Positions 5,266 through 41,613 of a stretch of 46,695 nt of DNA are shown here, in pieces. The translations under genes and the position numbers were made by a program. Positions within the stretch are counted from its first letter, which is position 1; each line of letters starts with the position of its first letter. Source of the DNA: Alphaproteobacteria bacterium (GTDB taxonomy: Bacteria > Pseudomonadota > Alphaproteobacteria > UBA9219 > RGZA01). The stretch spans positions 1 to 46,695 of the forward strand of contig JANRLI010000020.1 of the NCBI GenBank assembly GCA_033762625.1, in the 5' to 3' direction. The notes below the pieces were generated by a model that had not been told where the DNA came from, did no database searches, and saw only the letters and a list, made by a program, of their open reading frames with translations.

Positions 5266-6138
5266 TTATAGCGGAATCTTAATTCCGGCTTTACCCGCAG
5301 CATCCTGAATAAATTGCCAAGCCACGCGGCCGGAACGCGCGCCGCGTGTGACTGACCATTCAATGGCTGCGGCGTGTAACGCCTCGCGCGATTGCGGCAG
5401 TTTAAGCCAATCGGCATAGCCATCAATAATCGCAAAAAAGGTCTGCTGGTCGCAGGGATGAAAGCCCAGCCACAGGCCAAAACGGTCAGACAGCGATACT
5501 TTTTCTTCAACGGCTTCGTATGGATTAATAGCAGTTGAACGCTCATTCTCAATCATATCGCGCGGCATTAAATGGCGGCGGTTTGATGTTGCGTAGATAA
5601 TGACGTTATCGGGGCGGCCTTCAAGTCCGCCCTCCAGCACAGCTTTTAATGATTTATAGCTGCTTTCATTTTCAGAGAATGACAAATCATCACAGAATAA
5701 AACAAAACGGCGTTTATCGCCGCGCAGCAACCGCAGCAACACGGGCAGGGTTGGAATATCCTCCCGGTGAATTTCAATCAGTGCGATAGAGTTAGGAATG
5801 TGTTTTAAAACATCTGCATGAATAGCTTTGATGAGAGAGCTTTTGCCCATACCGCGCGCACCCCACAACAACGCATTATTAGCGGACAAGCCCTTGGCGA
5901 ACTGCATCGTATTGTTCAAGAGGATTTCTTTTTGTAAATCGACACCCTGTATCAGCTTTAAGTCCACGCGCGAAACGCTTGATAATGCTTCTAATTGTTG
6001 CGTTTCACTTTGCCAGATACACGCATCACCTTTGGGAATATGCTTGGCTTGCGGCGCGGGCGGCTTCATGCGCTCCAGCGCTTCCGCAATACGGGCAAGA
6101 AGGGGCATTATTTCCTTATTGGGTGCTTCTTTATCCAT
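5266..6138 (-). CDS. DUF815-family P-loop AAA ATPase
   Basis: A 290-residue ATPase of the DUF815 family (PF05673). Walker A is GARGMGKSS (about residues 93-101), Walker B is FVLFCDDLSF (about 145-154), and a sensor-like YATSNRRHL stretch follows. The family is widespread in alphaproteobacteria, commonly close to nlpD-like genes, but its biochemical role is not established to my knowledge. The start codon overlaps the end of the upstream dehydratase gene by eight bases, so it is the third gene of a minus-strand operon after the WbpL- and WbpM-like genes. The stop codon directly abuts the stop of the M23 lipoprotein on the other strand. Confidence 0.9.
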   Translation of the reverse strand: MDKEAPNKEIMPLLARIAEALERMKPPAPQAKHIPKGDACIWQSETQQLEALSSVSRVDLKLIQGVDLQKEILLNNTMQFAKGLSANNALLWGARGMGKSSLIKAIHADVLKHIPNSIALIEIHREDIPTLPVLLRLLRGDKRRFVLFCDDLSFSENESSYKSLKAVLEGGLEGRPDNVIIYATSNRRHLMPRDMIENERSTAINPYEAVEEKVSLSDRFGLWLGFHPCDQQTFFAIIDGYADWLKLPQSREALHAAAIEWSVTRGARSGRVAWQFIQDAAGKAGIKIPL

Positions 6139-8050
6139 GCGCAGTTTTCTTTTGCGGCTCAGACTGCGCGCCTGTAAATTCCGGCACTAAATTGACAATC
6201 GCGCTGCGCAACACATGCTCATCCGTAGTGGCATCTTGGGCTTTGGTAGCGAGCGATGTGATGAAGCTATTCACATCATTAAATGGTTTTGGCGCAGCCG
6301 CGGCCAGATGAACACCATCCGCGCCAGACGGCGTCAGCTTTTCGCTGTCAGAAAATAATTCTTCGTACAACTTTTCACCTGGGCGCAAACCGGTATATAC
6401 AATTTTGATGTCTTCATCGGGTTTTAGTCCGGCAAGGCGTATCATCTGCTTTGCCAAATCGGCGATTTTCATGGGGTTGCCCATATCGAGCACCATGATT
6501 TTGCCGCGCTCCGTAATGCCGGTAGCCGCGTGTGCAGATGCCTGTAATACAAGTTCGACCGCTTCGCGCACGGTCATGAAATAGCGCGTAATATCAGGGT
6601 GCGTAACGGTAAGGGGCCCGCCCTTTGCCAATTGCGCCTGAAAGCGCGGAACAACCGAACCTGTAGAGCCCAGCACATTTCCAAATCGCACAGTCAGGAA
6701 ACGTGTCTTGCCGGAATTGTCGTGGTCAAAGGCCTGACAATAATGTTCGGCGATACGTTTGCTTGCACCCATCACATTGGCTGGGCGTACGGCTTTATCG
6801 GTTGAAATCAGCACCATCACATCGCTGTTATATTGTGCGGCCGCATCGGCAACATTCTTGGTGCCTAATACGTTGGTCAGTAATGTTTCACGCACATTGG
6901 CTTCTGCCATGGGCACATGCTTTAGTGCAGCAGCATGAAATACGATATTCGGTTTAAAGGTTGAGAAAATCTGGTTGATGCGTTGCGCATCGCGCACATC
7001 CGCAATCTGCGCATGAATGTTGAGCATTGGGAATGCCTCGCGCAGTTCCAGTTCAATTGCGTATAAATTAAATTCGCTGTTATCGACCAATATCAATTCA
7101 CTGGGCTTTAATGCGGCGATTTGGCGGCTTAATTCGCTGCCTATGGTGCCGCCAGAACCTGTGACCAATGCGCGTTTATGTTGCACAAAGGTAGTCATCG
7201 CGTTCCTGTCCAGTACGGTTTCTGCGCGGCCCAGTAAATCTTCCAGCGCAATCGGGCGGACATTCGAAAGCGAGCCGGCGTTTTCATGAAGCTCGGTAAT
7301 AGATGGAAGGCGCGACAGCGTGAGGCCGAGGGCCTGCGCTTCGGAAAGGAATTGTTCAAAACCTGGGCTGCGCCCAGCAACCTTGCTGATAATCAAACGG
7401 GCAGGGGCAAGGTTCTTGGCCTTCAAATCATTCACAACGCGCTTGAGGTCAGCCATATTGCCAAGAATGGAAACCGAGTGGATTTCACGGCCGGTGCGCG
7501 TGCCCTTTTCATCGAGCACACCCACGACATGATAAGGGGAAGCGCGGTCAGCAATTGCGCTTTGAATAAACAGCACTGCTTCATCGCTTGCGCCAACCAC
7601 CAGCACATTGGTGCGGTCTTGATGATTAGCATTCCAGAAACGGTCTAGGCGTCCTTCGCGCAGCAAACGCACAAACAGGCGCGAGCCGCTCATAAACGCA
7701 ACGAGTACGAACCAAACAATACCCGCAACCGAACGTGGCATACCATCCAGACGGGTGAGCAGGAATGAAACAGGAAGAAAGATCGCAACGGCAAATGTCA
7801 CGGCGCGCAGGATATTTCCCAAATCCCGAACAGATGTGTAACGCCATACGCCCCGGTAAACGCCGGTAATCGCAAATGCAAATATGCTGCTGGAAACGAA
7901 GAGCAGCATTTGAAGCAACCACGGTTCCGCAGGAATTTCGAACAGCCCGCCGCCAAGACGCAGGTACATGGCCACTGCAAATGTAAATGCAGCCATGAAT
8001 ACATCATGCACAAATGAAAATATGACGCGGTTGAAACGGGGCAATACCAT
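6131..8050 (-). CDS. WbpM/CapD-type membrane nucleotide-sugar 4,6-dehydratase
   Basis: A 639-residue polysaccharide-biosynthesis enzyme of the large membrane-bound FlaA1/WbpM/CapD class. Four predicted membrane helices occupy the first ~125 residues. A first nucleotide-binding fold (VLVVGASDEA) follows, then the catalytic SDR domain with the NAD(P)-binding TGSGGTIG at about residue 297. The active site reads STDKA then NVMGASKR. The Met in place of the usual catalytic Tyr is typical of the WbpM subgroup, which converts UDP-GlcNAc to a 4-keto-6-deoxy sugar. The product would feed synthesis of a dideoxy-amino sugar for lipid-linked glycan. The start overlaps the WbpL-like stop by one base (TAATG), matching the known functional pairing of such enzymes. 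The exact substrate cannot be read from sequence. Confidence 0.92.
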   Translation of the reverse strand: MVLPRFNRVIFSFVHDVFMAAFTFAVAMYLRLGGGLFEIPAEPWLLQMLLFVSSSIFAFAITGVYRGVWRYTSVRDLGNILRAVTFAVAIFLPVSFLLTRLDGMPRSVAGIVWFVLVAFMSGSRLFVRLLREGRLDRFWNANHQDRTNVLVVGASDEAVLFIQSAIADRASPYHVVGVLDEKGTRTGREIHSVSILGNMADLKRVVNDLKAKNLAPARLIISKVAGRSPGFEQFLSEAQALGLTLSRLPSITELHENAGSLSNVRPIALEDLLGRAETVLDRNAMTTFVQHKRALVTGSGGTIGSELSRQIAALKPSELILVDNSEFNLYAIELELREAFPMLNIHAQIADVRDAQRINQIFSTFKPNIVFHAAALKHVPMAEANVRETLLTNVLGTKNVADAAAQYNSDVMVLISTDKAVRPANVMGASKRIAEHYCQAFDHDNSGKTRFLTVRFGNVLGSTGSVVPRFQAQLAKGGPLTVTHPDITRYFMTVREAVELVLQASAHAATGITERGKIMVLDMGNPMKIADLAKQMIRLAGLKPDEDIKIVYTGLRPGEKLYEELFSDSEKLTPSGADGVHLAAAAPKPFNDVNSFITSLATKAQDATTDEHVLRSAIVNLVPEFTGAQSEPQKKTAHG

Positions 8051-9087
8051 TACTCGCTTAAATTGCCAGAGTTTAAAATACTAAGACGTTTTAGATACCA
8101 CAACAGCCCCAAGACAAGCAAAGGGGCCAATAAAAGCACCCAACTATTAATGGTGAGCGCGGTGATGGACAGCGCCAAAAGCCCAGCATTTGTTGCGATA
8201 ATTGCCCTTACCACTGGAACGGGGCTGCCAGCGCCCAATGCAGCTTGTTGGTAATAATGCTCGCGGTGTGCTTGCCAAAATTTCTGTTTTTTGAGAATGC
8301 GGCGGATAAGAGTGAGGCTTGCATCAAACGCATAATAAAGAGGTAAAGCGAGGGCAATTCCCAAATAGCCTTGGCTTGCCAGCAGCATCATTAAATAGCC
8401 AAGTAGAAAGCCAAGCGGAATGCTGCCCACATCACCCATAAATAATTTGGCGGGATGCCAATTCCAAATCAGAAAGCCAATTGCTGCACCGGTTAATGCA
8501 CTGGCGATAATGAACCCGATTTCTGGAATGCTTCCGGCTAACAAACCAGCAACAATAAAACCGATACTTACATGCATGGTTTGGGCACCCGTAATGCCAT
8601 CAATCCCATCCATGAAGTTCGTAAGATTAACAAACCATAGCCAAGCAAAACCAGCAACCACGCGGTCCAACCACAAAGGCAGTGCGCCCTGAAACACCAG
8701 ATCGGTAACCGGAAGGGACGCAAGCCCCAATCCAACGGCAAGCAAGTGCACCATGAAGCGTTCACGTGCGGGCAATGATTTTTTATCATCCAGCCATGAA
8801 ACGATAATCAGCCCTGCGACGGCTAATAACAGAAAAAGATGTTCGGCAAATTGGCCAGAATATATTTCATAAATAATCCAAACCGGTAATACAGTTAGCC
8901 ACAGCGCAATTCCGCCACCGCGTGGTACGGGCGCGGTGTGCATGCTTCGTTCATTTGGGTTATCAAGAATAGATGCTGCCAGTAAACGGTTACGCACCAT
9001 GCCGCATATAAACCATGAAATGACGGCCGTTAAAATAATGATCAGCGGTATGATAAACATGGCGCTGATATTACACAGGGCATCCAT
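8050..9087 (-). CDS. WbpL/WecA-like undecaprenyl-phosphate sugar-1-phosphate transferase
   Basis: A polytopic protein of the MraY/WecA/WbpL family, with about ten membrane helices. Family motifs in order are PRGGGIALW near the N-terminus, SWLDDKKSLPARER (the Asp-Asp motif), NFMDGIDGITG, FMGDVGSIPLGF and HREHYYQ. These enzymes move a sugar-1-phosphate (often a HexNAc or FucNAc) from UDP onto undecaprenyl phosphate at the inner face of the membrane, starting O-antigen or capsule assembly. The frame could open at the TTG at 9096, but the ATG at 9087 (345 residues) or 9060 is more likely; none has a strong ribosome-binding site. It leads an operon with the WbpM-like dehydratase and DUF815 ATPase, and diverges from a GT2 gene 45 bases away. 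Confidence 0.9.
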   Translation of the reverse strand: MDALCNISAMFIIPLIIILTAVISWFICGMVRNRLLAASILDNPNERSMHTAPVPRGGGIALWLTVLPVWIIYEIYSGQFAEHLFLLLAVAGLIIVSWLDDKKSLPARERFMVHLLAVGLGLASLPVTDLVFQGALPLWLDRVVAGFAWLWFVNLTNFMDGIDGITGAQTMHVSIGFIVAGLLAGSIPEIGFIIASALTGAAIGFLIWNWHPAKLFMGDVGSIPLGFLLGYLMMLLASQGYLGIALALPLYYAFDASLTLIRRILKKQKFWQAHREHYYQQAALGAGSPVPVVRAIIATNAGLLALSITALTINSWVLLLAPLLVLGLLWYLKRLSILNSGNLSE

Positions 9088-9132
9088 GAAACTCAATTGA
9101 CAGCCTATGCATAGCGGGTTAGGCCTTTGCGC

Positions 9133-10005
9133 ATGAGTAATTCAACAAAAACAAGCGTTATAACGGTTTCGTACCACACCGGCGCAGTGCTGTTCGACAT
9201 GATTGCATCTGTTCTGGCGCAAGACGGGCTTGCCGAACTGGTTATCGTCAATAATGGGAATCCCGCAGATGTGGTCCAAAAGCTGGAAAGTATGGCGGCG
9301 CAAAATCCGCGCCTGAAATTTGTAAGCGGTCAGGGCAATGTCGGCTTTGCCAAAGGCAATAACCTTGGCGCAAAAGTTGCAACGGGTGATTACATATTCC
9401 TTCTCAATCCTGACTCGGTTTTGCAGGCAGGCGATTTGGATACATTGATGGCACAATCGCAAAACCTGCCACGCCCACATTTGATTGGCCCGCGTATTTT
9501 GGATGCCGATGGTAAGGAACAAAGCGGAAGCCGCCGCGATGTACTCACCCCTTGGCGAGCAACCGTAGAAGCGCTCATGCTTTATAAATTATTTCCTAAA
9601 AGCCAAGTCTTTCGCCGCTGGAAATGGCATGAAGCAACCCTGCCCAAGGATATTGAAGAAGTGCCTGCGATTAGCGGTGCGGCGATGTTTTTGCCAAAGG
9701 ATGATTTCTGGCTGGTTGGCGGTCTGGATGAAGGCTATTTCCTGCATGTGGAGGATGTCGATTTTTGCTTCAATTTGAAAAAAGCAGGCGCAAAAATATT
9801 CTTCATGCCGCAATTATCGGTAAAACATATTGGCGCAACCAGTGATGTGCCATCCTTAGTGGTTGAAAAGCACAAGGCCATTAGTATGGTCCGCTATTTT
9901 CATAAGAATTTTTCAGGTTCAACATTCCCGCCGATGCTTTGGCTTTTGAACATCGCAATTTGGGCGCGGTATTATTTAATGGTACTTCGCAGGAAACTTG
10001 CTTAG
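9133..10005 (+). CDS. Family 2 glycosyltransferase (WbbL/rhamnosyltransferase-like)
   Basis: A 290-residue GT-A fold enzyme. Visible features are the N-terminal strand VITVSYHTG, ELVIVNNGN, the NVGFAKGNNLG signature, the metal-binding region FLLNPDSVL (a DxD variant), and AISGAAMFLPKDDFWLVGGLDEGYFLHVEDVDFCF, which matches the acceptor/catalytic part of WbbL-type rhamnosyltransferases. A short hydrophobic patch near the C-terminus could touch the membrane. It would add a sugar to a lipid-linked glycan in the cytoplasm; donor and acceptor are unknown. The ATG at 9133 is preferred over a TTG at 9127. The stop codon overlaps the stop of the convergent SDR gene. Confidence 0.88.
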   Translation: MSNSTKTSVITVSYHTGAVLFDMIASVLAQDGLAELVIVNNGNPADVVQKLESMAAQNPRLKFVSGQGNVGFAKGNNLGAKVATGDYIFLLNPDSVLQAGDLDTLMAQSQNLPRPHLIGPRILDADGKEQSGSRRDVLTPWRATVEALMLYKLFPKSQVFRRWKWHEATLPKDIEEVPAISGAAMFLPKDDFWLVGGLDEGYFLHVEDVDFCFNLKKAGAKIFFMPQLSVKHIGATSDVPSLVVEKHKAISMVRYFHKNFSGSTFPPMLWLLNIAIWARYYLMVLRRKLA

Positions 10006-10871
10006 TCCATATCCTTTGGAAATTCAGGCTTAAAATCGCGCGCATTCAGTTTCAGAATAGATAACGCATCCGTGCCGTCATAGGCCAAATCCTGGTTCAT
10101 ACGCTCAAACAGACTGGGGCTAAGGTTCGTTAATCCCATCATGCGTACCACCCGCAACAGGTTTTTAAGGAAATAGGTCGGGAATGAAAAAATTCGGATG
10201 GGCCGGCCCAGCGCTTCGGCCACGCGGCGTATCATCGTAAAGTACGTGATGGTCTCGCCGCCGGTAACATTGATGGATTTATTAAATGCAGCTTTGTTAC
10301 CGATGCTATTGACTACGGCTTGCGCAACATCTTGCGCGTGAATGGGTTGGCGAAGGCCCATGGCTTCTCCCGATACCATGAAGAAGCCAAAGCGTTTAAT
10401 CATGCGTGCGATAAAGGTAATGTTTTGGTCATTCACGCAATCATAAATCAGAGTAGGGCGCAAAATGGTGTAAGGAATACGGAATGTTTCACTGTTGACG
10501 CGTACAACTTCTTCGGCAGCACTGATTTTTCTAACCAGTTCTTTTTCTTCCTTATCAAGACTTTTGGATTTGCCAAACAAACTGGTAGAGCTGAGGGTGA
10601 TTAACTGGGAAGCACCCAAAAATTGTGGCATGACAGGGCCAAGTAACCATATCGGCCACAGGCTGATGATGACTGCGCGGTCATGCAAGTGCCATGAAGC
10701 ATCCTGCACTTCATTGGTGGGCAACCATGCAAAATTAAGGCCTGTATCAGTCTTTTTGCGGCTTACGACGTAGCCGCGATATCCTTGTTCTGCCAATAAC
10801 GGCAAAAGGTAATTTCCAACAAGGCTACCGCCGCCTAAGACTAGGACTTGCTGTTTACTGTCGTTTTCCAT
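10002..10871 (-). CDS. NAD(P)-binding SDR-like epimerase/dehydratase
   Basis: A 289-residue protein with an N-terminal Rossmann fold (VLVLGGGSLVGNYLLP, a GxGxxxG-like variant), an LSSTSLFG strand in the position of the catalytic Ser/Thr, and the ILRPTLIYD and HAQDVAQAV strands usual for extended or atypical SDRs of the NmrA/NDUFA9 sort. The usual catalytic YxxxK is not apparent: the sequence after SSTS is LFGKSKS. It may therefore bind the nucleotide without classical epimerase chemistry. Its place beside glycan genes suggests a role in nucleotide-sugar metabolism, but this is only context. It diverges from ilvD, 40 bases away. Confidence 0.8.
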   Translation of the reverse strand: MENDSKQQVLVLGGGSLVGNYLLPLLAEQGYRGYVVSRKKTDTGLNFAWLPTNEVQDASWHLHDRAVIISLWPIWLLGPVMPQFLGASQLITLSSTSLFGKSKSLDKEEKELVRKISAAEEVVRVNSETFRIPYTILRPTLIYDCVNDQNITFIARMIKRFGFFMVSGEAMGLRQPIHAQDVAQAVVNSIGNKAAFNKSINVTGGETITYFTMIRRVAEALGRPIRIFSFPTYFLKNLLRVVRMMGLTNLSPSLFERMNQDLAYDGTDALSILKLNARDFKPEFPKDMD

Positions 10872-10911: not shown

Positions 10912-12627
10912 GTGAAGTGGGATAAAAGCAAATTGCCAAGCCGTCATGTCAGCGTCGGGCCAGAACGTGCGCCGCATCGCTCATACTACTACGCCATGGG
11001 CATGACGGAGGAGGAAATCAACCAACCCTTTGTTGGCGTTGCAACCTGTTGGAATGAAGCTGCTCCATGCAATATCTCCCTGTCACGTCAGGCACAATCT
11101 GTCAAAAAGGGCGTGAAGGAAGGTTTTGGTACGCCGCGCGAATTCACCACCATCACCGTGACCGATGGTATTGCGATGGGTCATGAAGGGATGAAGTCAT
11201 CCTTAGCCAGCCGTGACCTGATTGCAGATTCGGTCGAGTTGACGATGCGCGGACATTGCTATGACGCGATGGTTGGGTTGGCGGGCTGCGATAAATCGTT
11301 ACCCGGTTTGATGATGGCCATGGTGCGTTTGAACGTGCCATCCGTGTTCATGTATGGCGGTTCGATTTTGCCGGGTAAATTCCGCGGGCAAGACGTAACC
11401 GTTCAAAACGTATTTGAAGCCGTAGGCGCCCATGCCGCAGGTAAAATGAGTGATGAAGATCTGCATGAGTTAGAATGCGTTGCATGCCCCTCTGCGGGTT
11501 CATGTGGCGGTCAATTTACCGCAAACACTATGGCCTGTGTTTCCGAAGCAATCGGTTTGGCATTACCGGGGTCTGCTGGCGCGCCAGCGCCCTATGAATC
11601 CCGTGATGAATATGCGGCAGCATCGGGTAAAGCTGTCATGGAGCTAATTAAGAAAAACATTCGCCCGCGCGATATTGTAACGCGCAAAGCTTTGGAAAAT
11701 GCTGCGGTCATCGCATCTGCTTCGGGTGGTTCAACTAATGCGGCGCTTCACTTGCCAGCGATTGCGCATGAATGCGGTATTGATTTCGATTTGCATGCCG
11801 TTGCCGAAGTATTCAAACGCACGCCGTATATTGCCGATATGAAACCGGGCGGCAAATATGTCGCCAAAGATATGTTTGAAGCGGGCGGCGTTCAAATGCT
11901 GATGAAGGCATTGCTGGATGGCGGTTATCTGCACGGCGATTGCATGACAGTAACGGGTAAAACGATTGCTGAAAATCTCAAAGACGTTGTATTTCGTACG
12001 GACCAAGACGTTATTCGCACCACCAAGAACCCCATTACGCCAACGGGCGGCGTGGTTGGTCTGCGCGGTAATCTTGCGCCGCAAGGCGCCATTGTGAAGG
12101 TGGCGGGTATGAAGAACCAAGTGTTCACCGGACCAGCCCGCGTGTTTGATTGCGAAGAAGATGCTTTTGCTGCGGTTGAAGCCCGCACCTATAAGGAAGG
12201 CGAAGTTATCGTTATCCGCTATGTCGGTCCACGTGGCGGCCCCGGCATGCCGGAAATGCTTTCCACTACTGCTGCGCTGTATGGACAAGGCGTTGGCGAT
12301 AAGGTTGCTTTGATTACCGATGGACGCTTCTCTGGCGCAACACGTGGCTTCTGCGTAGGCCATGTTGGCCCCGAAGCTGCTGTGGGCGGGCCGATTGGCT
12401 TGATCAAGGATGGCGATATCATTGAAATGGATGCCATTAAAGGCATTTTGAATGTGAAGTTGTCGGACGAAGAATTGGCAAAGCGCCGCAAGGAATGGAA
12501 GCCACGCACCAATAATTTCCAAGCGGGTGCATTGTGGAAATACGCACAGCAAGTTGGCGATGCGGAAAAGGGTGCGGTAACGCATCCGGGCGCAAAAGCC
12601 GAAACGCATGTGTATGGGGATATTTGA
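10912..12627 (+). CDS. ilvD: Dihydroxy-acid dehydratase
   Basis: A 571-residue enzyme of the IlvD/Edd family that dehydrates 2,3-dihydroxy-isovalerate and 2,3-dihydroxy-3-methylvalerate to the 2-oxo acids that precede valine, leucine and isoleucine. The Cys residues that bind the Fe-S cluster lie in [19 protein letters not shown] and [12 protein letters not shown]. The C-terminal half shows GGPGMPEML and [12 protein letters not shown], also diagnostic. It starts with GTG at 10912, eight bases after a strong AAGGAGA ribosome-binding site. No other ilv gene is in the window, so it sits alone among glycan genes. Its stop directly abuts the stop of the convergent glycosyltransferase. Confidence 0.97.
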
Positions 12628-14787
12628 TTATTCTTCGCGGTAAGCGGTTATGGATTTGATCCGGCCCTTGGTACCGGGCTGTAAATCAACGGCAATACCC
12701 GCGATTTCAGGCCGATAATACACCGGCAATTCCAGTAGGTATGTATTGCCTGCCGGCATGGCACGGGCAATGCTATAACGCTCCAGTGTGTTTTCATTCT
12801 GGATAAGATGAACGCCGATTTGCCCTTGGGTAATCTCCGCTTCAATTACAACTAAAAATTCGGATGGCAGGGTGTTGTCTTGCGCCAGCACAACATAGGC
12901 TGCAACGCCGCTGTTTTGCGCGTTGGCATTAATGGTGGCGGCGAGAGTGGTTTCGTTATCAAGTGTGCAGCCCTGCTGGAAAACCGTATTGGCTTTCATA
13001 TAGGGGAAGGGCATGGGCTTCAGGCGCTTGCGGTCAAAACGGCAATCGCGCAGGCGGTCAGTAATCACGTCGCCTTCAATTGTCCGGTCTGTTTCATAGC
13101 GGAAGGCTCGGGCACGATGTCCTGTTGCCACAATGCTATCCCATAACGTGTTTGGAACGCCCGTATGCGAATTGGCCCGCCAATAGCGCAGCATAAGTTT
13201 TGTTTGTTCCAGCGTGCTCAAGCGCTCTACCGCATAGGGTTCGCTGGCGCGGGTTAGAACCGTTGTTGCAAAGCTTTGAATGGGTGTTGCGCGGGCCAAC
13301 ACATCCATCATTAGCGCCTTTTCATCCCCTGCTGCCGGAGGTGTTTTTAAAAGCGCATCGTCGATCACGCTGCGCGGCGCGAGGTAGCCCGATGGTGTGA
13401 TAAGTTCAAGGCAGGTCATGAAATCTTTTTCTTTTAAATCCAGTTGGTGGCTTACGCCGCGCATCTCGTCATTTTTTATCCACGCGGTATCGGGTGCGGG
13501 CGTTAAGTGCTCTGTGACTAATGCGCTATGCACAAAATGATCTGGCTTGGAAAGTTCCAGCGCGCGGCGCAAATGCTGCGGAAACCATTCATCGCATTCG
13601 CGTAGCACCGCAAAATAATCGCCTTTTACATAGCGCAGCCCATCCCAAAGACTACCGCCATCCACTTGAAAAACAGCGGCTTTGTGCTTGAAAACAAAGG
13701 GTTTTGTTTTAATTAGGATGATTTGCGTGCGCTTATGTTCTTGCGCTGCCACCGAATTAATAGCCCGTTCCAGTTGCTGTGGCCGCGTGCCATCGCTTTT
13801 GATAATCACGCTGACCAATGGCGCATTACGCAGCTGTGCAGCAATTTTGCTTTGATGCTGCTTATGAAAATCCACCGTCTTTTTCAGCAATACTTCCAGC
13901 GCGAATTTTTCTTCAAATATTTTGCGTGAACGCGCGGCTTTTTCCAAAGCCTCCGCCGGATTTTTCATGATATGGGCATGAATGGCCTGAACCTGTTCAA
14001 ACAGTTGTTTGTTAGAGCGTTCCTGTTCAAAGTAATAAATGCTGTCGCCAAAATGTTTTTCAAGCCACGGCATGCGGCAGCTGATAATCACTGCGCCAAC
14101 TGATGCGATTTCAAACACACGATTGGAAATCACATCTTCCTGCAAATGGTGATCGCCCAGCAGGTTTAATCCCATGCCGTTTTTGCGGTAAACATCCTGC
14201 ACGGCTTTACCATCAAATGGCACAGAGCCTTTATATGATGGCAAATTATAATGCCCCCAGCTAGTGGTTGGCCCGTATATTTCGCCCTTATCCCATGCGC
14301 CAAATGATTTGAAGAAATCGATGCGGCGGCCATCCCAATTCGTCCCGAAATAGGGGAGCTTGGCATTGCCGCTGGTTAGCGCAGCCTTAATATCATCTTG
14401 GCTGGTTGATTGTTTAAGCGCAGTGCTGAAATACGTGCCGACATCTTCTTGCCGGCCAATTCCAACCATCGCCTGCTGTGCAAATTCTGCAAGGCTATCG
14501 GACAGTGATGTGTAGCCATCAAACGAGTAAAGATATTGAAGTAATTTCGGGTCGCGGAAATAAACCGTGCTGGGTTCATTCAAACACGCATAGGTTGGAA
14601 AGCCTGTCAGCTTTGCCTGAGTTCTGGAATTTACAATCACAAAATCGGGTTTTGCGTTTTCAACCTGCGCATTGTTAAAGCAGGGAACAACCTCAACGCC
14701 AATCCGTTCCCCCGCAAGCCGGATAGCCTGCGCGGCCTGCTCCTCGGCACTTGTGGCGGTCCAAACATTAAGAAAGGCTATGCGCAT
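12628..14787 (-). CDS. Large multidomain glycosyltransferase (CgeB-like GT-B + GT2-like + C-terminal beta domain)
   Basis: A 719-residue protein from the ATG at 14787 (MRIAFLNVW); an upstream start at 14850 would add a hydrophobic leader that I consider spurious. Residues ~1-340 resemble CgeB/DUF3880-type GT-B enzymes: NLLGDHHLQEDVISNRVFEIASVGA is the donor-binding part. Residues ~345-560 look like a GT2 domain (PLVSVIIKSDGTRPQQLERAINS, YVKGDYFAVLRECDEWFPQHLRRAL); the usual DxD aspartates are partly replaced (RECDEW). The last ~120 residues are beta-rich and may bind carbohydrate. It probably extends a surface glycan; substrates are unknown. It stands alone on the minus strand between ilvD and the diiron gene. 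Confidence 0.8.
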   Translation of the reverse strand: MRIAFLNVWTATSAEEQAAQAIRLAGERIGVEVVPCFNNAQVENAKPDFVIVNSRTQAKLTGFPTYACLNEPSTVYFRDPKLLQYLYSFDGYTSLSDSLAEFAQQAMVGIGRQEDVGTYFSTALKQSTSQDDIKAALTSGNAKLPYFGTNWDGRRIDFFKSFGAWDKGEIYGPTTSWGHYNLPSYKGSVPFDGKAVQDVYRKNGMGLNLLGDHHLQEDVISNRVFEIASVGAVIISCRMPWLEKHFGDSIYYFEQERSNKQLFEQVQAIHAHIMKNPAEALEKAARSRKIFEEKFALEVLLKKTVDFHKQHQSKIAAQLRNAPLVSVIIKSDGTRPQQLERAINSVAAQEHKRTQIILIKTKPFVFKHKAAVFQVDGGSLWDGLRYVKGDYFAVLRECDEWFPQHLRRALELSKPDHFVHSALVTEHLTPAPDTAWIKNDEMRGVSHQLDLKEKDFMTCLELITPSGYLAPRSVIDDALLKTPPAAGDEKALMMDVLARATPIQSFATTVLTRASEPYAVERLSTLEQTKLMLRYWRANSHTGVPNTLWDSIVATGHRARAFRYETDRTIEGDVITDRLRDCRFDRKRLKPMPFPYMKANTVFQQGCTLDNETTLAATINANAQNSGVAAYVVLAQDNTLPSEFLVVIEAEITQGQIGVHLIQNENTLERYSIARAMPAGNTYLLELPVYYRPEIAGIAVDLQPGTKGRIKSITAYREE

Positions 14788-14958: not shown

Positions 14959-15867
14959 TTGAATCTCGCTGATACACCTATCGCTTCACAAGAAGCGCCA
15001 AAAGCTAGAAAGAACTGGTCGCTGGATGATGTTCCATGGGCGCATTTCAATTCGTCGCTCGTTTGTCCCGAAATCCTCAAAGTTGTGAAAGCGGCGGCAT
15101 TGGTTGAATACAATGCGCATGATTACGCAACTTATCTTTCCAATATTTTTGCGGGAGATGAAGAATTCCTGAAAGATATCCAGCAATGGGCCGTTGAAGA
15201 AATCCAGCATGGCGAAGCATTAGGCCGTTGGGCTGAAATGGCTGACCCGACATTTAACTTCAAAGAAAGCTTCAAAGCGTTCGTCAAGGGCTACCGTATT
15301 GACCTGACCGCGAAGGAATCCATCCGTGGTTCACGCTCAGGGGAGCTCATTTCCCGTTGCATCGTTGAAACCGGCACCAGTTCCTATTACACCGCATTGG
15401 CTGATGCCGTGAATGAACCTGTTCTTAAATACATCTGTCAATCGATTGCCGGCGATGAACTGCGCCATTACAAATTCTTCTATAACCATCTTAAGCGTTA
15501 TCTGGAAGTTGAAAAACTTTCACCCATGCAACGCTTGAAAATTGGGTTATCACGCATCCAAGAATCCGAAGATGATGAATTATCATTTGCATATTATTCC
15601 GCGAACTTTACAGGTATGTCGAAGAACCGCGCGGCGAATGACAATGGCGGCGTTGTATATAACCGCCAACAATTCACCGAAGAATATACCGTGCGTGCCT
15701 ACAGCAAATATCGTGCCCATCATATGAACCGCGTGGTATCAATGGTGCTGAAAGCCTGTGGTCTTGATACCCAAGGCTTTGTTGCAAAGGCTGCAGCAAA
15801 ACTTGCGTGGTTCAGCCTGGCGTCACGTATCCGTAAGGCCAAAAAAGCCACCAAGCTCGCGGCTTAA
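14959..15867 (+). CDS. Ferritin-like diiron-carboxylate protein
   Basis: A 302-residue, mostly helical protein carrying a complete four-helix diiron ligand set: Glu50 (VEYNAHD), Glu81 and His84 (EEIQH), Glu137 (IVETG) and Glu167 with His170 (DELRH). This ligand pattern is that of the ferritin-like superfamily that includes acyl-ACP desaturases, AurF-type N-oxygenases and rubrerythrins. An oxygen-activating or iron-binding role is likely, the substrate unknown. The C-terminus ends in a basic, amphipathic stretch (SRIRKAKKATK) that might contact membrane or acyl carrier. The start is TTG at 14959, supported by GAGAGGTG seven to thirteen bases upstream; no in-frame ATG fits. No ferredoxin gene is adjacent. 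Confidence 0.8.
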   Translation: MNLADTPIASQEAPKARKNWSLDDVPWAHFNSSLVCPEILKVVKAAALVEYNAHDYATYLSNIFAGDEEFLKDIQQWAVEEIQHGEALGRWAEMADPTFNFKESFKAFVKGYRIDLTAKESIRGSRSGELISRCIVETGTSSYYTALADAVNEPVLKYICQSIAGDELRHYKFFYNHLKRYLEVEKLSPMQRLKIGLSRIQESEDDELSFAYYSANFTGMSKNRAANDNGGVVYNRQQFTEEYTVRAYSKYRAHHMNRVVSMVLKACGLDTQGFVAKAAAKLAWFSLASRIRKAKKATKLAA

Positions 15868-15941: not shown

Positions 15942-17528
15942 ATGTCAGAACCAGCCTTAAAGCCCCAAGAAACCAATAACGCGCCCGTTACTGCAACGCA
16001 GCGCATGGCAAACCTTGTCTCACTTGCCAAGCGCCGTGGCTTTGTATTTCCGGCGTCAGAAATTTATGGCGGTTTGAACGGTTTCTGGGATTTTGGGCCT
16101 TTAGGTATCGCGCTTAAAAACAATATCCGCGATACGTGGTGGCGCGATATGGTCGAATGCCCGCCGATTGGTCCTGATGGTAAACCGCTTTCGATTGTTG
16201 GTTTAGATAGCTCGATTATTCAAAACCCTAAAACATGGGTGGCATCGGGCCACGTTGCGGGCTTTGCCGACTTGATGACGGATTGCCGCGAAACCAAGGG
16301 TCGTTACCGCGCTGACCATGTTATTTGCCTTGATGTGCTTTATCAAAAAGGCGGTCAAACCAAAACATTTGGTGGCTGGCTAAGCACGCTCGATGGAGAC
16401 GAAGCCGAAGCTAACCTTCTAAAAAAAGCAAAGAAGTTGGTTCAAAAAGCAGGTGGCGGCGATATTGTGCCGTTTGATATCTCAAAGGCCATCCCGCTAA
16501 CGGAGCTTACGGAAAAGCAGCGCGAAAGTGTCATCGGCCCCGATGCGGAAAACCCAGGTACATTAACCGAGCTACGCAAGTTTAACCTGATGTTTGAAAC
16601 CTACACAGGTGTGTTTCAAAACGAAGATAGCAAAGCGTACCTCCGCCCTGAAACTGCGCAGGGTATTTTTCTGAATTACAAAAACGTGCTGGATTCATCG
16701 CGCGTGAAAGTTCCGTTTGGCATTGCGCAAATCGGAAAAGCATTCCGCAACGAAGTAACGCCGCGTAATTTCATTTTCAGAACCCGTGAATTCGAACAAA
16801 TGGAAATGGAATTCTTCTGCCCGCCTGAAGAATCCCGCACATGGTATGATTTCTGGGTGCAAACCCGCCTGAAATGGTGGGAAGAACGTATTGGGCTTAC
16901 CAAAGCTAAGCTGCAACGCCGCGAACATGCGAGCGATGAATTATCTCATTATTCTACTGCCTGCGCTGACGTTGAATATAAATATCCGTTCTCTGAACCA
17001 AAATTCGGCGAGCTGGAAGGTATCGCGCATCGCGGCAATTTCGATTTAACGCAGCATTCGCAACATTCCAAAACCAACCTCGATTACTTTGATCAGGAAA
17101 ATAACAAAAAGTACCTGCCGCACGTGATTGAACCTGCCAGCGGATTAACGCGCGGGGTATTGGCTGTACTGTGCGACGCCTATGAATATGATGCGTCGCG
17201 CGCATCACCTGAATGGCTGCGCATTAAGCCAAGCCTTGCGCCAGTAAAGGCAGGTATCTTCCCCTTGGTGAACAAGGATGGTATGCCGGAAATGGCTGAA
17301 AAGCTGTATATGGATTTGCGCCAAAGTTTTACCTGCCAATACGATGCCAAGCAGTCGATTGGCAAGCGTTACGCCCGTATGGATGAAGCAGGCACGCCAT
17401 TCTGCTGCACAGTAGATGGTGATAGCTTGAAGGATAATACCGTTACTGTTCGCCACCGTGACACCGCGCAGCAGGAACGTGTTTCGGCGGATAAACTCAA
17501 AGCGTATTTGGCCGAGAAACTGGTTTAA
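15942..17528 (+). CDS. glyS: Glycyl-tRNA synthetase, single-chain (dimeric, eukaryote/archaeal-like) type
   Basis: A 528-residue class II synthetase of the one-subunit GlyRS type. The N-terminus (LVSLAKRRGFVFPASEIYGG) and GFWDFGPLG are motif 1 landmarks. SGHVAGFADLMTDC follows, then motif 2 (GKAFRNEVTPRNFIFRTREFEQMEMEFF), motif 3 (EPASGLTRGVLAVL) and a C-terminal anticodon-binding domain starting near LAPVKAGIFPLV. It attaches glycine to tRNA-Gly. Most alphaproteobacteria use the unrelated two-subunit GlyQ/GlyS instead, which makes this gene notable, especially next to ppdK. The ATG at 15942 is chosen because GGAAAG lies five bases upstream; the frame is open from 15888. Its stop overlaps the stop of the convergent Nudix gene. 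Confidence 0.94.
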   Translation: MSEPALKPQETNNAPVTATQRMANLVSLAKRRGFVFPASEIYGGLNGFWDFGPLGIALKNNIRDTWWRDMVECPPIGPDGKPLSIVGLDSSIIQNPKTWVASGHVAGFADLMTDCRETKGRYRADHVICLDVLYQKGGQTKTFGGWLSTLDGDEAEANLLKKAKKLVQKAGGGDIVPFDISKAIPLTELTEKQRESVIGPDAENPGTLTELRKFNLMFETYTGVFQNEDSKAYLRPETAQGIFLNYKNVLDSSRVKVPFGIAQIGKAFRNEVTPRNFIFRTREFEQMEMEFFCPPEESRTWYDFWVQTRLKWWEERIGLTKAKLQRREHASDELSHYSTACADVEYKYPFSEPKFGELEGIAHRGNFDLTQHSQHSKTNLDYFDQENNKKYLPHVIEPASGLTRGVLAVLCDAYEYDASRASPEWLRIKPSLAPVKAGIFPLVNKDGMPEMAEKLYMDLRQSFTCQYDAKQSIGKRYARMDEAGTPFCCTVDGDSLKDNTVTVRHRDTAQQERVSADKLKAYLAEKLV

Positions 17529-18583
17529 CGTCCATAAGCAGGCTTGGAAATTTTAGCGAGGCGCTCGCCAACGCTATCGATGAAATCAAGCGTTGCATGA
17601 CCTGTGCCGATTAAGGTTGGCGCGCTTTCGGCTTCATCAATAACCAAATTTAATAGCCGTATGGATTGGCCGTTAAGCAGCATACCATCCCCATTCAGCG
17701 TGCCATTTTCATATTCGGTTTTAAGATATTTGGCGACAGCATAAAACACATCCAACGGCACAAAGTAGGGAAAGCGTGATGCTTGCGCTGGATCACGTAG
17801 ATAATCCATGAAGCTATCAAATGGCAGAGTATGAAAATGCATAACTTCATCATTTGGCTGTGGAATATCATCCGGCTTCATCAACCATAAATAAACAGAT
17901 ATGTGACGGTTGAATATGGATTTGTCTTTTTGGCGCAAGGTATAAATGGTGCCAAGATAAAGCGGGCTATTTATTTTTCCATCGATGGTGACTTTAAGCT
18001 TTGTTTCCTGTCCCGTTTCGCTTTGCATATTTTCATCACGGGTTTTTTCGGCTTCCATTTTGCCGCCAATTGCGTTGTCCCATTCGCCAGCATAGGTTCC
18101 TTCACCGCGTTCACCGAATACGATATGCACTTGGCCATTAATAACTTTCAATGCAACGCAGTGGCAATTGAAGCGGGGAAACCCAAGGGCTTGCAAAGTC
18201 GCGCTATCACACACGGGTGTGTGATCCTTGATTTCGTTCCATGGCCTGTCATCCCACTCGCGGACAATCCGCGCATATTCAACCGGGTTATCCAGTGTTA
18301 TGGGTTTAATCCGGTTATGGGTGCGTAAGGTATCGGTGATGTGTTGTAATGCGTCCGTAACTTGTTGGGCTGTGGTATAGCCTTGGCCGATAATCAGCTG
18401 TCCGCCACGGCCAAAACTGAAAATACCCTTGGACATCAAATCATCATCACCCAGCAATAACTCAGCATTTTTGAGGTGAATTAGCCCCATCGTTCCGTTA
18501 TAGGGAACTTCGATTTCAAGGAATTGGTCATCCCTGTGGTGTCTGGTCTTTTCTAATATTTCTAAAAATAACTGGTAATCCAT
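17525..18583 (-). CDS. DUF4743-Nudix protein with a degenerate Nudix box
   Basis: A 352-residue protein built like DUF4743-Nudix hydrolases of the plant/fungal thiamine-pyrophosphate type. The N-terminal ~125 residues include GLIHLKNAELLL and the linker PWNEIKDHTPVC. The Nudix fold then starts around FNCHCVALKVINGQVHIVFGERGEG and runs into the WDNAIGGK strand. The box after GGK is shortened and reads DENMQSETG where REUxEExG is expected, so the metal-binding glutamates are largely missing. It may be inactive, bind a nucleotide, or use different residues. It lies convergent with glyS, four bases of stop codon overlapping, and upstream of nothing obvious on its own strand. Homology is inferred from motif layout only. 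Confidence 0.72.
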   Translation of the reverse strand: MDYQLFLEILEKTRHHRDDQFLEIEVPYNGTMGLIHLKNAELLLGDDDLMSKGIFSFGRGGQLIIGQGYTTAQQVTDALQHITDTLRTHNRIKPITLDNPVEYARIVREWDDRPWNEIKDHTPVCDSATLQALGFPRFNCHCVALKVINGQVHIVFGERGEGTYAGEWDNAIGGKMEAEKTRDENMQSETGQETKLKVTIDGKINSPLYLGTIYTLRQKDKSIFNRHISVYLWLMKPDDIPQPNDEVMHFHTLPFDSFMDYLRDPAQASRFPYFVPLDVFYAVAKYLKTEYENGTLNGDGMLLNGQSIRLLNLVIDEAESAPTLIGTGHATLDFIDSVGERLAKISKPAYGR

Positions 18584-38763: not shown

Positions 38764-41613
38764 ATGATGCGTAATAAAAATTTAATAGCTTTTCTAGCAC
38801 TGGCGCTTTGCTTTTTTTCTGCAAATGCAATGGCAGACGGCACAGCCTCTTGCGGTGATATTACGCAAGTCAAATATATGCTTCAAAAATATGCCACAAA
38901 TGATCCTGGCAATTACTGCATTCGCGCAACGACGCTTGCTGAATCTTATCCATGTATGCGCGAAGAAGTTTTGCGCCAAGCCAATGTGGTTGCACGCCGC
39001 CAAGGACTTGCTGAAGTCGTTGTGGGTTGTCCTGTTGCTGCGGTTGCGCCTGTTGTGCAATATGCGCCGCCACCACCACAATATGTTCAGTATCAACCTG
39101 TTCAACAAGGTTACATTTATCAACAGCAGGCTGTAATCCCCCAAGCACAAACCTATGAAACAGTTGGCCCGGCCATCGTTCAAGGTTCACGCTACACTGG
39201 TGCGCATGCTGGCTTTTTCAGCGGCAGCTCATTGCTATGGGTTGGTTTGGGTCTTCTGGTTGCAGGCGGTACAGCCGCAGCGCTCATCACGGGCGGCGGC
39301 AGTAGCACAGATACCACCACGACAACAACTGTCACTGAATTCATCACCGATGAATACAGAGCCCAATACAGTTTAACCACCATGGACGCAGCAGCTGCTT
39401 ACCAACGCGGGTACACTGGATCTGGCATTCGTGTTGCTGTTCTCGATACTGGCCTTGATCTTAGCCATTCTGAATTCCAAGGCCGTTTCGTTTCTGGCGG
39501 CGGCTTCGATTTCGTGACGAATTCAGCTGGTCAGGCGACAACGCTTAATTCCCACGGTACGGAAGTTGCTGGTGTGATTGCAGCAAACCGCAATTTTGTC
39601 GGTATGCATGGCGTTGCTTATAACTCAACCATCGTTCCATTGCGTGTGTTTGACGCATCTGGCGGCGCGATTGCTTCGTTTGCTTCGGCAATTGATTATG
39701 CGCGCACAACCTCTGGCGCTATGATCTTAAACGGCAGCTACGGCCCGGATGATGCATGGCATAACAACTTTGAGCCTCTTGGCTACCAAGGTATTATCAC
39801 CACCCCAGAAATCGCTGAAGCAGATGCGTACAAAGCATACGTACAAGCTGGCGGTATCCTTGTATTCCCAGCAGGTAACGCATTCGCAATTGCCCCAGGC
39901 CTTGCGCGCAATCCAACCGGTCCGGGTTTCTTGCCATTTATCAAACCAGCTAACGCAAATATTGCTGCAAATACAACTGGTGCTTACCGCGATGAAAATG
40001 GCAACGTGATGGCATCTGCTGACTATTCGGCTTTACAACCGCAAACGATTGTTGTTGCTGGTGTAGATAGAAACAATACTATCTCTGCATTCTCCAATCG
40101 CTGCGGTGTTGCTGCGCAGTGGTGTATGGTTGCTCCTGACGAAAACATTTTTACCACCACAACAGGTGGCGGTTATGCGACGGTTTCAGGAACATCATTT
40201 GCTGCACCGCAAGTTTCAGGTGCCCTTGCAATTCTCAAGCAAGAATTCCCTAACCTGACCGCTGCACAGCTCGTTTCCCGCTTGCTCAATACCGCTACCG
40301 ATCTTGGTACGCCGGGTGTTGACGCAATCTATGGTCACGGGTTGCTTAACCTTGCTGCTGCTTCAAACCCAGTTGGCGTAACCGGCATTTCAACCACTGG
40401 CTTGCTTGGCGGTAACTACCACACTGTTGCAGACAGCCATCTGACCTATGGCCGCGCATTTGGTAGCGCGGTTGGCTCTGCATTTAACGGGGTAACCGTG
40501 CTTATGCTCGACAGCTATGACGCTGCGTTCAAGATGAGCCTTGGCAATCAGATTATTGCTAACTCTGCTTCATTCAACACACGTCAAGCTGTTTCAAAGT
40601 TCAACAATGCTGATGAACGCGAAGAATTGTCCTTTGGCGGTAAGACCAAGGTTGGCTTTATTACTGAAAGCAATCAGGACAACAGCCACTTCCTTGGCGA
40701 CAAGCCACGTGATGACAATGACAAAACCTCAAGCTTCAAGAGTTTTTCTTTGACGCAAACCATGTCAAGCTCGGAAGAAGGATCTGTTCACTATAAGGAT
40801 GCAATCGCACTTTCCTTGGGCTTTAGCGAGGCAGACCGCGACCGCGCTGATCGCGCAATCAATAAAGATGCAATGAACAACCCATACGCAGCATTTGCTG
40901 GCGATGGCTTTGCGTCCGTGTACAAGACGCAAGCGCTTGGCGGCACCATGAAGATTGCAGGCTTCTATGGTCACAGCGAAAGTGACGAAGAAGCAAACAA
41001 CTTCGGTACCCAAGCTGAATTGGGCTACAAGCTCGATAAAGATACCGACGCATTCATGTCATTCGGTACCTTGTTTGAAGAAAACCGTGTTCTAGGCAGT
41101 AAGGGTACTGGCGCCTTGGCATTTGGCAACGGCACCAGCACCATCTATGTGGGACTGGGCGGTAAGGCTGCTCTGACGAGTGACTTAACCCTGCGTGTCA
41201 ATGCGTATGGCGGTATGACAAATCCAAGCCTTAACCGTGACAACTCGCTTATTAAGGACTCAAGCGAAATCATCACCTCTGCATTCAATGCTGGTGTTGA
41301 TAAGATGAGCAGCTTCACCAAAGGCGACGTATTGGGCTTTGGCGTATCACAGCCATTACGTGTTGAAAGTGGCAGCATGCAGTTTGAACTGCCAAGCCAG
41401 TTGAACTCGACCTATACCGGTTTGCTGACCCAGCGCTTCACCCAAGACCTTTCCGCGCAAGGCCGCGAAATGGATATGGAAGTGAACTATGCAGTACCAG
41501 TAGGCAAGGGTGAATCCTTGGCTGCCGGCACCTTGTACCGTATGGATGCAGGCCATGTATCGGGCCGCAACGACTTCCTGGGCGTCATGCGCTACACGAA
41601 GAAGTTCCAGTAA
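38764..41613 (+). CDS. Large secreted subtilisin-like (S8) protease with autotransporter-like C-terminus
   Basis: A 949-residue protein. A signal peptide (FFSANAMA, about residue 24) precedes a short four-Cys region (residues ~28-90) and a Gln/Tyr/Pro-rich stretch. A strongly hydrophobic Gly/Ala/Leu segment (about 154-176) and a Thr run lead to the S8 catalytic domain with intact triad: Asp228 (VLDTGLD), His264 (SHGTEVAG) and Ser478 (GTSFAAPQVSG). The C-terminal ~400 residues resemble alphaproteobacterial S8 proteins that end in a barrel-like region (SQPLRVESGSMQFELPSQL, SAQGREMDMEVNYAVPVG, YRMDAGHVSGRNDFLGVMRYTKKF). It probably acts at the cell surface or beyond; whether a true translocator barrel exists is inferred. 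It stands alone, with a terminator. Confidence 0.88.
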   Translation: MMRNKNLIAFLALALCFFSANAMADGTASCGDITQVKYMLQKYATNDPGNYCIRATTLAESYPCMREEVLRQANVVARRQGLAEVVVGCPVAAVAPVVQYAPPPPQYVQYQPVQQGYIYQQQAVIPQAQTYETVGPAIVQGSRYTGAHAGFFSGSSLLWVGLGLLVAGGTAAALITGGGSSTDTTTTTTVTEFITDEYRAQYSLTTMDAAAAYQRGYTGSGIRVAVLDTGLDLSHSEFQGRFVSGGGFDFVTNSAGQATTLNSHGTEVAGVIAANRNFVGMHGVAYNSTIVPLRVFDASGGAIASFASAIDYARTTSGAMILNGSYGPDDAWHNNFEPLGYQGIITTPEIAEADAYKAYVQAGGILVFPAGNAFAIAPGLARNPTGPGFLPFIKPANANIAANTTGAYRDENGNVMASADYSALQPQTIVVAGVDRNNTISAFSNRCGVAAQWCMVAPDENIFTTTTGGGYATVSGTSFAAPQVSGALAILKQEFPNLTAAQLVSRLLNTATDLGTPGVDAIYGHGLLNLAAASNPVGVTGISTTGLLGGNYHTVADSHLTYGRAFGSAVGSAFNGVTVLMLDSYDAAFKMSLGNQIIANSASFNTRQAVSKFNNADEREELSFGGKTKVGFITESNQDNSHFLGDKPRDDNDKTSSFKSFSLTQTMSSSEEGSVHYKDAIALSLGFSEADRDRADRAINKDAMNNPYAAFAGDGFASVYKTQALGGTMKIAGFYGHSESDEEANNFGTQAELGYKLDKDTDAFMSFGTLFEENRVLGSKGTGALAFGNGTSTIYVGLGGKAALTSDLTLRVNAYGGMTNPSLNRDNSLIKDSSEIITSAFNAGVDKMSSFTKGDVLGFGVSQPLRVESGSMQFELPSQLNSTYTGLLTQRFTQDLSAQGREMDMEVNYAVPVGKGESLAAGTLYRMDAGHVSGRNDFLGVMRYTKKFQ

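Follow-up and report, generated by a model that had tools for sequence, protein, structure and literature searches.

How many sugars are transferred by an enzyme in which two different glycosyltransferase folds follow each other in one chain? The question is raised by a gene of an Alphaproteobacteria bacterium (GCA_033762625.1, contig JANRLI010000020.1), located in a stretch of 46,695 nucleotides that was analyzed as a whole and is called the window below. The preliminary description of this DNA proposed that the protein adds two sugars in turn, and at the same time suspected that its second fold is no longer catalytic. Counting glycosyltransferase domains does predict two sugars here, and yet one is the likely number. 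The second enzyme domain lacks key active-site residues, and the protein thus probably transfers one sugar rather than two. We put at about two in three (0.66) the probability that it is a one-sugar GT-B enzyme that retains a pseudo-GT2 domain and carries a lineage-specific tail. The features of the gene are the following.

12628..14787, minus strand: whole gene, 719 amino acids plus stop (ATG at 14787, stop at 12628-12630)
13858..14787, minus strand: residues 1-310, CgeB-like GT-B glycosyltransferase (PF13524 and alignments)
13228..13824, minus strand: residues 322-520, GT2/GT-A-like domain with a degenerate active site, or pseudo-GT2 (profile comparison)
13696..13713, minus strand: residues 359-364 (IKTKPF), place of the GT2 DDGS-type motif (alignments)
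13585..13602, minus strand: residues 396-401 (RECDEW), at the GT2 metal site, DxDD (profile alignment)
13321..13326, minus strand: residues 488-489 (DE), position of the xED catalytic base (profile alignment)
13018..13227, minus strand: residues 521-590, partly helical in a weak model and, as a guess, a linker (low-confidence model)
12631..13017, minus strand: residues 591-719, C-terminal domain, weakly predicted to be beta-rich (low-confidence model)

The coordinates of the gene were borne out, and we add the strand, which was missing from the preliminary description. Frame 1 of the plus strand has many stops between 12628 and 14787, while the reverse complement is a single open reading frame of 719 residues followed by a stop. 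An alternative TTG start 63 bases upstream would give 740 residues. We preferred the ATG because the three full-length orthologues have the start MRIAFLNVW in common with the window protein. They come from 59 searched genomes (own included), five of which have a match: the genome of the window, where the protein is the single match in 2.23 Mb (window contig included), then G002, G001, and G003, with respectively 90%, 72%, and 48% identity over the full length, and G014, with 29% identity over residues 138-359 only. The same-family genome G004 (89% complete) has no match to the window protein. The three orthologues, like the window protein, keep all three parts. The division into a GT-B part, a GT2-like part, and a separate tail is supported, except for the beta-rich nature of the tail, which is unconfirmed.

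The N-terminal half is a recognizable glycosyltransferase. PF13524 (Glyco_trans_1_2) matches residues 167-292 with an E-value of 2e-07 and 31.5 bits, above the cut-off of 25; the name CgeB-like is that of the preliminary description, the family assignment being made here by PF13524 and not by comparison with CgeB itself. The same model is above cut-off in all nine further homologues and in four of four more. The family cut-off is thus passed here as in other PF13524 glycosyltransferases, with the difference that in the window protein the module is joined to two others. In an alignment of 10 homologues (A4), the residues Y146, G148, N150, W151, F191-D192-G193, H214, R223, F225, and E226 are invariant. 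H214, R223, and E226 may be donor-side residues, and these motifs suggest that the GT-B half is the active one. In a wider alignment, E226 is replaced by Q in G538, and the N-W and FDG motifs differ in stand-alone proteins. The latter have only this module, in open frames of 365 to 411 residues (G140, G143, G246, and G251), which indicates that the GT-B module is able to exist alone. Two such copies adjoin each other in G246 and in G143, whose genomes have 1.4-1.5 Mb (loci L022, L023, L027, and L028), and by eye their N-terminal stretch is hydrophobic.

The descent of the middle domain is visible mostly in profile comparisons. The profile of the four orthologues (the window protein and the three others) matched active GT2s of the same and related genomes with an hhalign probability of 94.9 and an E-value of 4.3e-08 (columns 2-95). 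For the set of active GT2s, 25 loci were tried on the plus strand and 14 passed the length filter; L069 was on the wrong strand, and the comparison rests on 13 loci and the GT2 of the window itself. Without L069, and with the window protein alone in place of the profile, the match to the active GT2s had a probability of 68.8 and an E-value of 4.5e-05, the reversed control giving 0.2. The A3 profile matched the GT2 of a fusion protein of genome G815 with a probability of 95.8 and an E-value of 7.9e-09 over 175 columns, reaching the base helix (reversed control: 0.3), and the family profile A1 matched the GT2 PglI (9jma) in the PDB with an E-value of 2e-04. When the profile is widened with G815 and with a similar protein of G670, its GT2 stretch finds further proteins in the class, and all 15 loci obtained in this way scored with a GT2 model at 6.5e-07 or better.

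One could argue that this resemblance arose by chance in a middle region unrelated to GT-A. The single-sequence match to PF00535 is indeed below cut-off (E 0.025, 15 bits for a cut-off of 23.3), a single-sequence HMM gives a weak likeness to GT2 (7.8 bits, and -1.5 for the reversed sequence), and the full-length AlphaFold model, built from three sequences and hence a shallow alignment, has a pLDDT of 33.5. However, the two strong profile matches to GT2s with their near-zero reversed controls, together with the residue-by-residue alignment with the site of G815, make a chance resemblance scarcely credible.

What is left of the active site argues for its loss. As the preliminary description had expected, the profile alignment sets RECDEW on the DSDDEW of an active GT2, and there is no strict DxD anywhere in the 719 residues that could serve as an intact metal site elsewhere. 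The metal site reads LRECDEW in three of the four orthologues and LDEACEW in G003. The xED position is occupied by DE in G002 as in the window protein, by ED in G001, and by AA in G003, and none of the five residues formed by this position and its neighbours is invariant among the four. With the equivalents of both DxD and xED changed, the suspected loss of catalysis in the GT2 part gains support, and the proposal of two sugars in turn fares badly for the window protein, the more so as the xED position varies among close orthologues. Two fusions in the same order of GT domains differ in this respect: the protein of G815 has YFAVLDDDDFWLPDH (LDDDDFW) and TAEDTVL, and that of G670 has LDDDDSYSPDH and ALEDYVL, so that DxD and xED are intact in both. 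For these proteins the two-sugar reading may hold, as far as their motifs can tell. We also considered the missing DDGS-type motif as a sign of inactivity and discarded it, since G815 (VRYKD) and G670 (VNHNH) lack it too. This lowers the support for our reading, because the motif is absent even where DxD and xED remain, and for the same reason the GT2 activity of G815 and G670 is not certain.

The domain has nevertheless been kept. The dN/dS values, which are rough since dS is 0.64-1.39 relative to G002 and close to saturation or past it in the other comparisons, are in the comparison with G002 0.052 (GT-B part), 0.081 (residues 322-520), 0.131 (residues 322-430), 0.043 (residues 431-590), and 0.069 (C-terminal part); with G001 they are respectively 0.044, 0.120, and 0.159 for the first three, and 0.187 for the C-terminal part, the value for residues 431-590 not being computable. 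Every part of the protein is subject to purifying selection, which in both comparisons is stricter on the GT-B part than on the GT2 core. The stretch EWFPQH (residues 400-405) is identical in the four orthologues and may be a packing or binding surface. The most likely account is that the active site of the GT2 was lost while the domain was retained under purifying selection.

Two other readings of this retention have to be weighed. The GT2-like half might work without the standard metal site, perhaps via E397 and E400, in which case the enzyme would still transfer two sugars. All four orthologues have both residues, purifying selection acts on the domain, and GT-A enzymes that lost DxD can be active and metal-independent, as reported for GT14 and prokaryotic GT6 (PMC7185993). 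However, besides the loss of DxD, a base position that varies between DE, ED, and AA among close orthologues is not expected of an active inverting GT2, and we regard this reading as improbable. The other one overlaps with ours and is a sharper form of it: the pseudo-GT2 would keep an acceptor cleft and, as a glycan-binding or allosteric domain, position the acceptor for the GT-B. The invariance of EWFPQH, SDG, KTxPF, and LWxGL among the four orthologues speaks for it, as does the existence of other lineages that keep a GT2-like domain without DxD. Yet the conservation of the pocket does not differ significantly from that of the remaining domain (15 of 35 positions invariant against 55 of 164, p 0.33). 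That the pocket is not the less conserved of the two counts against our own reading, and that it is not the more conserved leaves the idea of a repurposed GT2 pocket unsupported, and the corresponding region of AzoRam and G301 is not recognizable as GT2. In this specific form the reading is possible but rather doubtful.

According to the reading that we prefer, the protein would be a glycosyltransferase, probably soluble since no membrane segment stood out, in which the N-terminal CgeB-like GT-B module transfers a single sugar, as its motifs suggest. The middle module would derive from a GT2 (GT-A) enzyme once fused to the GT-B and, now without metal-site and base residues, would survive as a folded and presumably inactive pseudo-enzyme. 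Its role would most likely be the packing of the GT-B or dimerisation, or else the holding of the acceptor. The C-terminal domain would be a lineage-specific add-on, perhaps binding the acceptor or a glycan.

The relatives with the same architecture give an idea of how often the site was lost. The protein of G815 has 31% identity with the window protein over residues 2-415, and the tree of the GT-B part places it as sister to the window clade with support 100/99. It is below the Pfam cut-offs (PF13524: 20.8 for 25; PF00535: 18.5 for 23.3), and G670 is above cut-off for both families. As the sites of G815 and G670 are intact, the simplest account is an ancestral GT2 with a normal metal site and base. 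Among the 16 fusion proteins examined (15 and G815), 2 have a DxD at the aligned place. The orthologue profile with reversed controls identifies the middle regions of G206b, G296, AzoTSA2s, and AzoArg as GT2-like (probabilities of 68.9-90.6); for Neotab (80.0) and G014 (68.4) the likeness appears only once G815 and G670 have been added to the profile, and with such controls there is no support for a GT2 in the middle of AzoRam, Niveis, G301, or G538. In a subclade formed by Niveis, AzoRam, and G301 (L008, L010, and L020), the middle is thus unrecognizable, and in the related AzoTSA2s, AzoArg, and G206b it can be recognized. A step-by-step erosion of the GT2 region is possible there.

On the best tree, three changes of the label "lost" are required, and the starred branches force two. 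This labelling counts 14 rows as lost, including AzoRam, Niveis, G301, G538, Neotab, and G014; since the GT2 likeness of some of them is unsupported or depends on the widened profile, repeated loss is likely rather than shown. The comparison of motifs thus suggests that the GT2 site was likely lost several times independently in the fusion family. In the wider alignment and tree, which for G246 and G143 used the longest open frame per locus, the rows G246b and G143b are the neighbouring stand-alone copy, and the rows G246a, G143a, and G251, which are another gene without the motif, were left out; the outgroup alone is affected.

Proteins with a GT-B and a GT-A domain in one chain are known among the exostosins EXT1, EXT2, and EXTL3 (GT47 GT-B and GT64 GT-A). 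In EXTL3, a human heparan enzyme, the GT47 half showed no binding of UDP and was proposed to be inactivated but retained, and the question of why a dead glycosyltransferase domain should be kept has been raised for it (PMC9178029). EXT2 might possess one activity only (PMC9675754). The likeness to the window protein is limited to architecture: the dead half is the GT-B in EXTL3 and would be the GT-A here, the exostosins are animal enzymes of other GT families, and the window protein has an extra C-terminal domain. Neither exostosin nor GT64 is among the four families found in the window protein by a Pfam scan up to E 1. We thus regard EXTL3 as the nearest analogue in architecture and not as a relative, and the bacterial fusion with its apparently dead GT-A half as a variant of an already known type, GT-B plus GT-A with one half dead.

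Pseudo-enzymes of this kind also exist as separate polypeptides. PMC7185993 places COSMC, a GT31 GT-A protein without DxD and xED that is a scaffold and a chaperone, among the dead scaffolds that GT-A proteins without DxD can become when they are not active metal-independent enzymes. COSMC resembles the GT2 part of the window protein in the loss of both motifs and differs from it in being a polypeptide of its own and of another family. In plants, IRX9 with its putative catalytic residues changed still complements its mutant (PMC4132061). No paper on this bacterial fusion was among the matches listed in a literature with partial coverage. We tentatively suggest, at clearly less than even odds, that there is a bacterial family of GT-B plus GT-A proteins in which the GT-A died repeatedly and independently and was kept for a new job (acceptor gripping, dimer scaffold, or allosteric control), mirroring EXTL3. 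Within one architecture, sister proteins either have or lack an intact GT2 site, which constitutes a natural experiment on the retention of dead domains.

The tail is supported as a separate domain, as had been proposed. Its last 130 residues are nearly all-beta in an AlphaFold prediction from three sequences (a shallow alignment), with a pLDDT of 43.7, which is too low to confirm the beta-rich nature or to name a fold. Of the 129 positions of residues 591-719, 41 are invariant among the four orthologues. The tail has no match in the PDB up to E 10 and no Pfam model of its own. Among the 59 genomes (own included), it is restricted to the window protein and its three orthologues, and among 385 genomes of the class it was found in the window's own and G002, with weak matches in G335 and G145. 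We attribute the latter to chance; by eye, these proteins resemble a PpiD-type foldase and a EutA-type protein. The long tail of G815 looks similar by eye but has an hhalign probability of 0.7. In a comparison of the tail profile with 100 shuffles each, the score of the G815 tail, whose match is in another register, was reached by one shuffle, and that of a single stretch of the Neotabrizicola tail by three; homology is claimed for neither. For the other four tails tested the number was at least 24, and for the GT-B control it was 72. The proteins P0005-P0007 of Azospirillum and Niveispirillum have a different end, with a segment that by eye is like a nucleotide-binding fold, and the Neotabrizicola fusion ends with several apparent beta repeats, also by eye. 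As other fusions end differently, the tail is seemingly an exchangeable module.

The profile of GT-B and GT2 found 9 of the 385 genomes of the class (own included), four of which (G140, G143, G246, and G251) have the stand-alone GT-B only, and 4 of 398 genomes of the phylum (own included). Homologues are also carried by plasmids of Azospirillum, Niveispirillum, and Neotabrizicola (five records). A viral origin was considered and rejected: phage records gave no match at E 1e-5, and none of 15 stretches of viral contigs that fitted a pattern encodes relatives.

In the window, the stop of the fusion gene abuts, tail to tail, that of ilvD (10912-12627, plus strand), and a desaturase/ferritin-like open reading frame at 14959 is divergent from it. 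A small group of surface-glycan starter genes lies nearby (6131-10871).

6131-8050: nucleotide-sugar 4,6-dehydratase type protein with an N-terminal CoA_binding_3 domain
8050-9096: WecA-like sugar-phosphate transferase
9127-10005: GT2 (PF00535, E 9.8e-16)
10002-10871: epimerase-like protein

This neighbouring GT2 has NPD (LLNPDS) in the usual place of DxD and is thus a clear GT2 that is off the strict motif. In G002, the fusion gene is flanked by the same neighbours as in the window. In G003 it is elsewhere, adjoining the genes of the ribosomal proteins L13 and S9, with an O-antigen ligase-like gene and a GT4 at about 10-12 kb. Given these different surroundings, the fusion gene is tied to no single operon. 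Genes of GDP-deoxysugar enzymes occur near the fusion homologues at L074 and L007 (by eye) and at L011 (annotated gmd), a hint that a GDP-sugar could be the donor. Two other genes of the window are worth a mention. An open reading frame of 352 residues beside the gene of glycine--tRNA ligase (17525-18583) has no Pfam match up to E 1 and a sub-threshold MutT-like match in NCBIfam (E 0.017). Finally, a protein of 949 residues (38764-41613), with no other Pfam match at E 0.001, has one subtilase domain (PF00082) at residues 219-526.
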